Source of the DNA: Bacteroidaceae bacterium
GTDB taxonomy: Bacteria; Bacteroidota; Bacteroidia; Bacteroidales; Bacteroidaceae
Direction: 5' to 3'
NCBI GenBank assembly: GCA_017647225.1
Contig: JAGCLA010000003.1
Span: forward strand, 1-64,000
Length of the DNA: 64,000 nt
Shown here: positions 15,189-22,867 of the stretch, piece after piece
How positions within the stretch are numbered: position 1 is the first letter of the stretch
How the letters are laid out: every line of letters starts with the position of its first letter
Notes under the pieces: model-generated
Told to the model about the DNA's origin: nothing
Database searches by the model: none
Seen by the model: only the letters and a program-made list of their open reading frames with translations
Program-made: the position numbers and the translations under genes

Positions 15189-15227
15189 AAAAAAGAATGC
15201 GAGATACAGCTATCTCACACTCTTTTT
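15189..15227. terminator. Strong terminator closing the phage-derived block
   Basis: Stem of 12 pairs, two of them G-U (15195-15206 with 15211-15222), 4-nt loop, followed on the minus strand by TTTTTT. It comes right after the portal gene and before the ligA promoter, so it shields ligA from read-through. A shorter T-run on the other side could make it bidirectional. Confidence 0.85.
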
Positions 15228-15239
15228 AAGAAAATTATT

Positions 15240-17159
15240 CTATTCTTTTTTCTCTTTTTCCACAGCCTGTAACAACTCTTGCGGAATACCCTCCATAGGT
15301 TGCCCTTTTGCAGCCTGTTCCTCGTTTCGTTTAATCGCTTCAAGAATTTTTGCAGCAAAGGGGAAAGAGGTGTTTTCGAGCATGGTCTTGACATCGACTG
15401 CATTGGCTTTGAACAGATCCATGAGGAAATCATTGGCAAGCATCTGATATGCCGGAGTATTATACCCTTCGGAGATTGTTATATCAATTTCACTATCCTT
15501 GACCTTCTGTGGGTCGTACCATTTTGATTCCTCTGAATAATGCACACCAGCCATATCTATATAACGTTTTTCGTTATAGAATTGCTGAATGGTTTTCATC
15601 ACTTTTGTATCCCTGCGGCGACGGAATGTCCTGAAACTGTCAAACAGTCCTTTTAGGTTCAACGACGAGTTCTGTATCTGCTGGGCATACAATGACGCCG
15701 GTGTACCCGCCTTGGGCGCCTGCCCCTGCATTGCCGAATTGACACCCGAGATTTCGTTTATGAGTCTCAGCTGAAGATTCAACAGCTCGAAATCTCCTGC
15801 AACAGAAGCACCGCTATTGTACTGCCGTACCACTCCATCAATGCTTTGTCCGGGTTTCAGTTTGACAAAAAGCACTCCGTTGTAACGAACATATTCATCA
15901 ATGACATCCTCGCGCGACATACTCTCAAAAGCATCGTCATCGACAACAAGCACACCTTTTGAAGATGTTCCACGAATGAAGTCGATAAGTGTCGCAGTAC
16001 GGTTTATGGCACGTTGCTGATCAATGAACTGTTCCACAAAATTACCCAACTTACCCTGTATGAGAGGGAAAAGATGAAGTACATAATTGTGTTCTCCATG
16101 CCAATATGGACTACGTCCTTCCTGCAATATATCGCCATGCGGTGTCATATAACGATAGTACCAATAGCGTTCTGTGGCAAAGCTATAGTTTATCAGCAAC
16201 AGTTCGTCGTCGCTTTTCCCAACATTCGCACTCCTGCGTTGCTCGTTTTCGTCATCAAGCATTCTACGGCTTTCGTCGTTGTAAGGAAGATAGCCCCATG
16301 TTCCACGCATCTCATCGTTCCAGTAATAGGCATCTCTCGACTCCAATTTCCAACCGAGGACAACACGGCAAAGCGATTTTCTCGAAGCGCTATAGAAGGT
16401 CAGGTTTTTCGATTCGTCGCCTTGAACCGACCTGTTTATATCGGCAAATGGCGACACGTAGGAATAGGCCTCCTTTATAAAGGCTTTCTTTTCGGGCGTT
16501 GTTCCGAAATGCGCCAGAACATCATCAAGCGGCAAATCAAATATCTCTCCCACACAAGTAACGTCCCACATTCGCACATCTTCGAGGTTGGCATTAAAAA
16601 ACAGACGCGAAGGATTTACACTATGCACCCATACATCGCGTTTATCCTTCGACGGATTAACGCCATACTCTATTCTTTGCGCCACCATACCACCGTTGAG
16701 CAGCATACGCATGGAGTCGGCATCAAGTTCTTCGAGTTCGTTTATATCATGAACATACTCTATGGCAACAGACATCATTTCACCGACCTTACATTCCGAC
16801 TGATTACGTGCGACACATACCGGACGCATCAAATTCTGACGAAGTTGACCGTCGATATTGCTCAATATCGGTGCAATCATATTATTTTTCAATGGTACTT
16901 TTCCATTTTTCTTTATCAGCTCACCTTCGGTTATCTGCGAAAGTGTGTCAGGATCCGTAACATAGTCGCCCCATTGGTCGCCGTAGCTATACATAAGGCT
17001 TCGTCGCAGTTTGCGACGAGCCTCATCAAGCGCGTTCCAGCACGCGGCACATTCATCGAGAAACTCCCTTGCCGTTCCTTTGGAACTCTTTTCGGGAGGT
17101 GGAATGGTATATGCACCCGGCTTGACACGTTTATCAAGAAATTTATTCATCTTATCCAT
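15240..17159 (-). CDS. Phage portal-like protein
   Basis: Protein of 639 residues resembling the portal proteins of short-tailed phages, the dodecameric ring through which DNA enters and leaves the head. Supporting pattern: an N-terminal region with YGDQWGDYV, then NNMIAPILSNIDGQLRQN, HSVNPSRLFFN, and a portal-like segment ISGVNSAMQGQAPKAGTPASLYAQQIQNS followed by a long helical stretch (LFDSFRTFRRRRDTKVMKTIQQFY). Length fits P22-, N4- or crAss-like portals. It is the last gene of the block, 6 nt after the polyvalent gene. No terminase, protease or capsid gene is adjacent. The frame is intact. The portal call is by pattern; structure prediction would settle it. Confidence 0.72.
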   Translation of the reverse strand: MDKMNKFLDKRVKPGAYTIPPPEKSSKGTAREFLDECAACWNALDEARRKLRRSLMYSYGDQWGDYVTDPDTLSQITEGELIKKNGKVPLKNNMIAPILSNIDGQLRQNLMRPVCVARNQSECKVGEMMSVAIEYVHDINELEELDADSMRMLLNGGMVAQRIEYGVNPSKDKRDVWVHSVNPSRLFFNANLEDVRMWDVTCVGEIFDLPLDDVLAHFGTTPEKKAFIKEAYSYVSPFADINRSVQGDESKNLTFYSASRKSLCRVVLGWKLESRDAYYWNDEMRGTWGYLPYNDESRRMLDDENEQRRSANVGKSDDELLLINYSFATERYWYYRYMTPHGDILQEGRSPYWHGEHNYVLHLFPLIQGKLGNFVEQFIDQQRAINRTATLIDFIRGTSSKGVLVVDDDAFESMSREDVIDEYVRYNGVLFVKLKPGQSIDGVVRQYNSGASVAGDFELLNLQLRLINEISGVNSAMQGQAPKAGTPASLYAQQIQNSSLNLKGLFDSFRTFRRRRDTKVMKTIQQFYNEKRYIDMAGVHYSEESKWYDPQKVKDSEIDITISEGYNTPAYQMLANDFLMDLFKANAVDVKTMLENTSFPFAAKILEAIKRNEEQAAKGQPMEGIPQELLQAVEKEKKE

Positions 17160-17165
17160 TGTTAA

Positions 17166-22486: not shown

Positions 22487-22530
22487 ATTCTTTTTTTGAT
22501 GCAAAAGAAATGCAAAGAGGCTATCACAAA

Positions 22531-22583
22531 GTTGCTGTAATGACAAAAAGCGGTGATATTCGACTTTATGTCATTACAGCAAC
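22531..22583. repeat. 15-bp inverted repeat between divergent genes of the phage-derived block
   Basis: GTTGCTGTAATGACA (22531-22545) and its exact complement (22569-22583) enclose 23 nt; after one mismatch the stem can extend by AAAG/CTTT. It lies in the shared upstream region of the minus operon and the plus-strand gene at 22622. It may be an operator, an RNA hairpin in either leader, or a recombination site. Confidence 0.8.
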
Positions 22584-22621
22584 CTCGCAGAAGGGAATCC
22601 GTTATAATTTAGCGGATAAAC

Positions 22622-22867
22622 ATGTATAAAATGAAAAACAAAAAGAAATGTGTTACACTTGACGATGTACACAATGAGACACTCGCACTCTTTCATCGTC
22701 TTATCGGACGGCTCGAAAAACTCACATTGAATTGTGAAGACCCCGGTACAATAAACCAGGCACTCAAGACTACTGCAGATTTCCTTGTCAAACTGAACAA
22801 GGAGCGTGAGCAAGGCTGTGACGACATTGGCGCATTGCTGCAACAGACACTGCGAGGTATTGAATAG
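22622..22867 (+). CDS. Small helical protein, divergent gene of the phage-derived block
   Basis: An 81-residue protein (MYKMKNKKKCVTLDDVHNETL...) that looks fully helical, with heptad-like leucines (LIGRLEKLTL, TTADFLVKLNKERE). ATG 22622 or 22631 could be the start. I do not recognise it; small phage packaging or regulatory proteins can look like this. It faces the end of atpG, with a 20-nt gap, and no terminator is visible. Confidence 0.5.
   Translation: MYKMKNKKKCVTLDDVHNETLALFHRLIGRLEKLTLNCEDPGTINQALKTTADFLVKLNKEREQGCDDIGALLQQTLRGIE

Follow-up and report, generated by a model that had tools for sequence, protein, structure and literature searches.

We analysed five phage-like genes that lie between ligA and the atp operon in a 64,000-nucleotide stretch of DNA from a Bacteroidaceae bacterium (hereafter, the window; positions 1 to 64,000 of contig JAGCLA010000003.1). 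The block is probably one of the loci of a gene transfer agent (GTA) that resides in the chromosome, is inherited vertically and derives from a podovirus-type Bacteroidales phage. Open reading frame (ORF) calling recovered all five frames, with LigA on one side and the ATP synthase gamma subunit on the other, just as the original prediction had placed them. On the reverse strand lie genes for a gp14-like internal or pilot protein of 174 amino acids (aa; 21962-22486; E = 4e-13 to the gp14-like protein of a prophage in genome G009), a 97-aa protein (21658-21951), a reduced large polyvalent or ejection protein of 1503 aa (17166-21677) and a P22-type portal protein of 639 aa (15240-17159; PF16510, E = 3.7e-34; phrog_156, E = 6.7e-55). 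The polyvalent protein carries an LPD23 domain (E = 3.3e-6, just above the cut-off) and a metallopeptidase-like HEVVGH motif, and is homologous to the giant polyvalent protein of the same prophage (L069; E = 1e-12). The fifth gene, on the forward strand (22622-22867), encodes an 81-aa protein that we call a putative small terminase subunit (TerS) by its position only; it is shorter than phage TerS. Profile searches with the 97-aa and 81-aa proteins returned nothing above curated cut-offs. The 97-aa protein evolves fast in sequence and keeps its place between the gp14-like and polyvalent genes, with an ORF cluster at the same place in 26 mapped loci. The portal operon ends at the strong terminator that had been predicted, a terminator-like hairpin with a 17-pair stem and a T tail (15190-15227, reverse strand; one found, compared with a mean of 0.1 in shuffled sequence). 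The predicted inverted repeat is likewise present, between the 81-aa and 174-aa genes, although its arms measure 20 nucleotides (22531-22550 and 22564-22583; 95% complementary) and not 15.

The original prediction had described the block as isolated, with no terminase or capsid gene in the window. Profiles for terminase, capsid and nozzle indeed matched the window's own genome on contig C45 only, and hence outside the window. The isolated-block reading itself was rejected because the terL, capsid and nozzle profiles match a second locus in nearly all genomes of the genus. In the window's genome this locus 2 (C45, 118275-129194) contains genes for a nozzle, an adaptor, a head protein of about 150 aa, a capsid and a scaffold and, on the divergent side, for proteins of 142, 152 and 158 aa and the large terminase subunit (TerL). 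Two overlapping genes between nozzle and adaptor encode a holin-like membrane protein of about 155 aa (which resembles, at E = 1e-7, a prophage protein encoded close to a spanin-like gene) and a spanin-like lipoprotein of about 130 aa. TerL was named by its PHROG match (phrog_2, E = 1e-20). No function is known for the PHROG of the capsid itself; the protein matched the phage profile at E = 9.2e-167, two phage members of that profile that we scanned matched SU10_MCP (E = 1.5e-29 and 2.1e-30), and the profile matched the solved major capsid 9in6 (E = 2.2e-12). The names scaffold, adaptor and nozzle rest on position, weak matches and homology to phage genes, and the nozzle had no match among solved structures. 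Judging ORFs by eye, with no profile scan, we recognised no integrase or replication gene at 12-26 kb of the window and no integration or replication gene at 109-140 kb of C45.

The inverted repeat in the block is two facing copies of one promoter element. One copy (22530-22545, reverse strand) reads TGTCATTACAGCAACT toward the gp14-polyvalent-portal operon and is followed by a -7-like box; the other (22569-22584, forward strand) reads TGTCATTACAGCAACC toward the 81-aa gene, where the -7-like box is imperfect. In 32 of 37 genomes, each copy at locus 1 (the block and its counterparts) agrees with GGTTGCTGTAATGACA at no fewer than 11 of 16 positions. The same element recurs in the divergent region of locus 2, with a best match of at least 12 in 27 of 34 genomes, compared with 2.9% of 340 shuffles. 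A pattern made from the four sites of the window's genome had no further match with up to one mismatch in 133 kb. Three one-mismatch matches precede genes in the correct orientation, together with a -7-like TAATTTTG box. Two of these genes encode GH108/PG_binding_3 endolysins of the muramidase type (205 aa and 303 aa; 57% identity over 192 aa), which lie at further loci, and the third encodes a DUF6973 protein. A composite of element and box, devised once these promoters had been seen and so strict that numerous true sites escape it (the one at the window's 81-aa gene among them), had 42 matches in 1,335,540 bases from 80 genus loci, some of them overlapping. All 42 stood before genes of the set: 41 at the two divergent promoters and one before the 152-aa gene of locus 2 in genome G035. 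Because this background is low, the endolysins likely belong to the regulon. The DUF6973 protein (L372:1573-2061; G000:C3), which has a particle-gene promoter, is a possible additional member; we found no paper under its family name in the literature searched.

The genus sample comprised 44 genomes, including the window's own; the named records are uncultured Bacteroidaceae or Bacteroidales metagenome-assembled genomes (MAGs), mostly from ruminant gut. A portal match was obtained in 49 of 150 related genomes, namely 41 of 44 within the genus and 8 of 106 outside it. Within the genus, matches were obtained for terL in 43, capsid in 43 and nozzle in 42 genomes. In G016, terL matches only within a prophage, which also holds the best capsid match, and a further capsid match scores weakly (289 versus about 550 bits); not counting G016, the set's own terL and own capsid each occur in 42 of 44 genomes. 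All four genes were present in each of the 11 genomes with completeness of 90% or more and contamination of 5% or less, and 40 of 44 genomes had at least one gene of each locus. Portal was missing in G012, G015 and G027, and all searched locus-2 genes in G006; these four genomes are 63-82% complete. Portal is nearly always single-copy, with a second, less similar copy in G009 and G016. In-frame stops interrupted one of 41 portals (G028) and, outside prophages, one terL (G018) and no capsid of the genus; the G011 portal is in two pieces.

Gene order is also kept. At locus 1, the order is the 81-aa gene and, divergent from it, gp14-like, polyvalent and portal genes, wherever the contig is long enough (40 fetched loci plus the window). 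In 23 of 41 loci LigA is no more than about 1.1 kb away from portal, and in 13 of 41 the opposite flank carries ATP synthase gamma; either some lineages have the block at another site or the contig stops short. Locus 2 is conserved in order over 40 fetched loci (39 genomes) as far as these reach, with exceptions: its halves are about 9 kb apart in G025 (L164, G025:C18), and nozzle and capsid are on different contigs in G002, G012, G025, G028 and G041, which makes a third place. Dispersal of the set thus seems to be continuing within the genus. By tblastn, the 152-aa gene had no match in several locus-2 stretches, and the holin-like and spanin-like genes were found in 31 and 32 of 40 loci; the misses comprise four loci with the nozzle elsewhere, others that are cut short, and L172 and L176, where only the holin-like gene is lacking. 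Portal and capsid are 14-105 kb apart in the 11 genus genomes carrying both on one contig. An HExx[GA]H motif occurs in 37 of 39 genus polyvalent orthologs longer than 900 aa, a count that leaves out one shorter ortholog.

We then measured selection as the median pairwise ratio of nonsynonymous to synonymous substitution (dN/dS; NG86; pairs with dS of 0.05-1.5; fragments below 60% of the median length and, for most queries, hits covering less than 80% were left out). The medians were 0.047 for LigA and 0.054 for DapA, used as host markers, compared with 0.059 for capsid (108 pairs), 0.082 for TerL, 0.089 for portal (19 pairs), 0.103 for nozzle (2 pairs), 0.116 for the gp14-like protein, 0.132 for the 81-aa protein, 0.162 for the polyvalent protein (4 pairs) and 0.191 for the head protein. 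The genes of the particle set are under purifying selection, and sequence conservation is higher for the capsid than for LigA (0.14 versus 0.20 in mean protein distance for the same pairs). The LigA+DapA tree had 10 of 17 splits in common with the capsid+TerL tree (20 genomes) and 11 of 20 with the portal+81-aa+gp14-like tree (23 genomes), with a maximum of 3 in 1000 permutations in either case. A tree of seven GTA genes had 8 of 17 splits in common with the host tree (permuted maximum 4), and the locus 1 and locus 2 trees had 25 of 33 in common (36 genomes; permuted maximum 3). The set is co-inherited and tracks the host tree, the vertical inheritance expected of a GTA. AtpA was dropped as a second host marker, as its distances correlated with those of LigA at just 0.16 and some of its sequences had lengths of 496 aa; its rows seem to be mixed with paralogs.

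A similar set exists elsewhere in the order, where a portal profile matched 37 of 392 genomes from 19 of 205 genera. Six family-level groups (f22, f29, f60, f67, f86 and f105) contribute 24 genomes in which portal, capsid and terL never stand all together; the genes are on separate contigs or are spaced by anything from about 14 kb to hundreds of kb. Contig breaks alone are weak proof of dispersal in MAGs, but two of these genomes are single contigs, with the set at three places in each: portal at 2.77, terL at 2.76 and capsid at 2.73 Mb in G317, and portal at 1.15, terL at 1.43 and capsid at 1.40 Mb in G345 (portal to terL, 278 kb). Group f105 is Barnesiella, by loci identical to named records; portal was present in 9 of 9 of its genomes, and the Barnesiella isolates An22 and An55 carry it. 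In a TerL tree of 92 of 151 rows (rows below 450 aa were left out, which removed roughly half of those from the genus and some from IMG/VR; the IMG/VR rows were the best 80 of 416), the genus formed one clade (SH-aLRT 100) beside the G009 prophage and two viral contigs. The second group formed another clade (97; 23 of 24 rows) with family-wise subclades and f26 as sister (93); the exception, TerL of G374, grouped with a viral contig. The portal tree (37 rows, 31 different) agrees on both clades. The simplest reading is that of two domestications in Bacteroidales. Side-chain carbon in TerL was lower in the genus (3.086, n = 31) and in the second clade (3.115, n = 23) than in phages (3.151, n = 85), values from rows that are not independent; selection on GTAs has been reported to favour cheaper proteins (PMC7360931). 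A second-clade promoter motif is suggested by one genome, G149, whose three dispersed loci have TGTGATAGTTATAAAA in common with 3 summed mismatches, compared with 7-9 in 20 shuffles.

Group f26, which may be a third or sister lineage, has portal and capsid together (G115, G302, G461, G221, G416 and G363), with terL on another contig (G115 and G461), 955 kb away (G302), closer (G221 and G416) or not found (G363). Besides the dispersed set, two f22 genomes (G218:C32 and G299:C77/C10) have a second, phage-like portal with terL adjacent, as well as a second capsid with in-frame stops, which in G299 is on another contig.

Two proteins of the block differ from their phage counterparts. In three related prophages, proteins read as TerS occupy the place of the 81-aa gene. 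Phage proteins at this place have 97-172 aa and N-termini that look, by eye, basic or helix-turn-helix-like, whereas the TerS candidate is short and lacks the N-terminal part. The 81-aa protein has 27 invariant columns in 34 sequences. An assignment as TerS by sequence was tried and rejected: against a prophage protein, BLASTP gave a nonsignificant E of 0.04, hhalign gave a probability of 1.6% (E = 0.032), and the local score was equalled in 103 of 2000 shuffles for the C-terminal part and 251 of 2000 for the whole. Against an 85-aa protein of G149 the score was borderline (36 of 2000 shuffles as good). Both second-clade loci viewed whole (L212 and L216) have a short protein between the gp14-like gene and terL. 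The shrinkage of the polyvalent protein relative to phages is clear: three phage versions (L069, L075 and L076) exceed 3300 aa, compared with 1503 aa in the window. The L075 protein has kinase, ADP-ribosyltransferase and pyrophosphatase domains and the L076 protein nuclease, methylase and helicase domains; the closest, L069, has LPD domains, with sub-threshold ADP-ribosyltransferase and metallopeptidase matches. Second-clade polyvalent proteins (833 and 864 aa) had no domain match.

Related phages carry the portal module together with terL, capsid and other genes for head and tail. Portal relatives occur in the Bacteroides phages BS-TP4, BKO1-TP3 and BF1-TP2 (PQ571277, PQ571269 and PQ571263), whose contiguous genomes of 64-68 kb are unlike the split set. 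BS-TP4 has the same families and the same local order of gp14-like position, giant polyvalent protein and portal, as well as terL, a scaffold position, capsid, adaptor and a nozzle-like gene; its polyvalent protein has 5391 aa compared with about 1500 aa here, and the portals are 34% identical. BS-TP4 gp7 (L129 20340-22436, PQ571277) is annotated as 'tail spike protein', likely a misannotation; the TerL of the window's genome matches it over its full length at 41%. The closest phage relative we found is an apparently complete prophage in G009 (G009:C6; L069, L130-L132), which coexists with the domesticated set in that genus genome (portal 57%, TerL 59% and capsid 73% identical). Unlike the split set, its genes lie together on one stretch, and it has a 172-aa protein at the TerS position, with a helix-turn-helix-like N-terminus by eye, and a polyvalent protein of more than 3669 aa. 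A portal related to the genus clade also occurs in L115 (uncultured Mediterranea MAG), broken into two frames of 463 and 184 aa; it is probably that of a decayed prophage. Elsewhere in the window, positions 30000-34443 have low G+C (0.34-0.36 at 30-33 kb), contain several small frames and end at a tRNA-Lys gene (34370-34443); the low-G+C stretch before this gene could be an island.

The GTA of Rhodobacter capsulatus (RcGTA) is siphovirus-like, with lysis genes at separate loci. RcGTA is alphaproteobacterial, whereas the present set belongs to Bacteroidales and has a P22-type portal and a large polyvalent ejection protein; the two were compared by description only. GTAs with a known genetic basis are classified from three origins (PMC9662315). 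In RcGTA (Rhodogtaviriformidae), as here, phage-derived head and packaging genes have been endogenised and inheritance is mostly vertical (PMC9662315); RcGTA TerS is described as being without a specific DNA-binding domain (PMC7947584), which our short TerS candidate parallels. BhGTA/VSH-1 (Brachygtaviriformidae) and the Bartonella GTA (Bartogtaviriformidae) are independent exaptations of tailed phages, and BhGTA of Brachyspira has a terL that is highly conserved in the genus and genes that are likely spread over multiple loci (PMC9662315). These GTAs come from other phyla and other ancestors and have experimental backing, whereas the present set is predicted from its genes. GTA-like packaging has been reported for Ruminococcaceae/Oscillospiraceae of the gut, and lateral transduction for Bacteroides (PMC12946183); the list of characterised GTAs given there contains no Bacteroidota. 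Among the matches listed in the open-access literature we searched (subscription papers and preprints being outside this scope), no Bacteroidota GTA was described.

Three of the six defining features of a GTA (PMC9662315) can be tested on sequence, and we found all three. Portal, TerL and capsid are derived from tailed phages by significant similarity and would form particles; the genes are dispersed over several loci; and inheritance is mostly vertical, the set diversifying along with its host. In place of the contiguous genome of a temperate phage, the genes lie at separate loci among core genes. Instead of the dependence on a helper capsid that marks a phage satellite, the set has its own capsid and TerL and is inherited congruently with the host. 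The definition also includes packaging of random host DNA, a head too small for the full GTA genome and delivery of the encapsidated DNA to other cells (PMC9662315).

Gene content, conservation, selection, co-inheritance and the common promoter element are matters of observation. The set is very likely a domesticated, multi-locus, co-regulated particle set, and it is likely a working GTA. Locus 1 would supply the portal, the ejection proteins and the putative TerS, from which the part for sequence-specific DNA binding seems to have been lost. Locus 2 would supply the terminase ATPase, scaffold, capsid, connector, tail nozzle and the holin-like and spanin-like proteins, with the two muramidase-type endolysins added from further loci under the same promoter element. 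A dedicated regulator would turn these promoters on jointly, probably in few cells; capsids would then be filled with unselected chromosomal DNA by headful packaging, the cell would lyse, and the particle would eject its DNA into a related cell. The original prediction of a domesticated DNA-delivery function is supported in part: the block looks domesticated and belongs to a machine for packaging and delivering DNA. More broadly, we lean towards at least two independent podovirus-type GTA domestications with multi-locus regulons, own promoter elements, a shortened TerS that would package without selection and co-regulated endolysins that would serve release, one fixed in the ruminant-gut Bacteroidaceae genus and one in Barnesiella plus five further family-level groups.

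The alternative that survives best, though it is unlikely, is that a domesticated podovirus-type particle, or part of one, does another job, either phage interference by decoy portal, TerS and capsid or killing by a DNA-free particle. Phage-derived parts kept under a common promoter element, a short TerS candidate and the lack of any receptor-binding protein seen would all fit. However, a decoy or killer does not need the joint conservation of terminase ATPase, scaffold, capsid and lysis genes, and TerL and capsid rank with the genes under the strongest constraint. A decaying prophage remnant, split by rearrangement and with frames intact owing to a recent event, is improbable and already largely refuted. 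Its genes do descend from a BS-TP4-like phage, inspection by eye showed no integrase or replication gene near either locus, and an apparently complete prophage of the same family exists in G009. Against this stand the presence of portal in 41 of 44 genus genomes at nearly always one copy, dN/dS far below 1, trees congruent with the host, a promoter element conserved at both loci, and the same pattern in a second clade of six family-level groups. Domestication, originally proposed as the more interesting alternative to decay, agrees with the portal dN/dS of 0.089, its spread through the genus and the gene order kept. Terminase and capsid genes do lie elsewhere, the split-prophage outcome that, taken literally, the original prediction had named as its refutation, but a split set that is genus-wide, selected and host-congruent points to a GTA and not to a split prophage. 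The suggested satellite borrowing a helper phage's capsid is very improbable and, like decay, fits poorly: the portal/ejection module and TerS candidate do form one tight block and related prophages occur in the genus, but the genome encodes its own terminase, scaffold and capsid, along with other head, tail and lysis-type proteins, at a second locus that shares the promoter element, and inheritance is host-congruent.

Several points weigh against a working GTA. Particles, packaged DNA and transfer are predicted from gene content, and most genomes are incomplete MAGs. Scaffold and adaptor evolve fast (median dN/dS 0.315 and 0.334). The 81-aa protein is a putative TerS by position, its sequence match being no better than chance, and in the other groups (f22, f29, f60, f67, f86, f105 and f26) a short gene lies 9-157 nucleotides before terL in just 14 of 29 loci, with none seen in f86, f105 (five Barnesiella loci) or f26. 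Loss of host-attack domains holds against two of the three phages only, L069 having none above the cut-off. The holin match is below the Pfam cut-off, and neither a receptor-binding protein nor a regulator was identified for the particle set. Moreover, the promoter pattern has eight exact matches genome-wide, four of them inside ORFs, and 19 matches with up to one mismatch, compared with 10 for a reversed control; a single element match therefore means little, and the endolysins were found through the motif, in the window's genome only.

If the GTA reading is true, an ancient virus has been turned into a DNA-packing particle in a bacterial phylum in which we found no GTA described. It would be a fourth, and probably also a fifth, origin of GTAs, in a dominant gut phylum. 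Gut Bacteroidales would trade random chromosomal DNA via dedicated particles, and this could explain part of the chromosomal exchange now credited to conjugation and transduction. The two sets would also provide an independent test of how GTAs emerge, through TerS shortening, shrinkage of phage effectors, gene dispersal and a private promoter, and the Barnesiella isolates make the GTA reading testable in culture. The set is also a warning that genes of Bacteroidales 'defective prophages' may be functional host genes.

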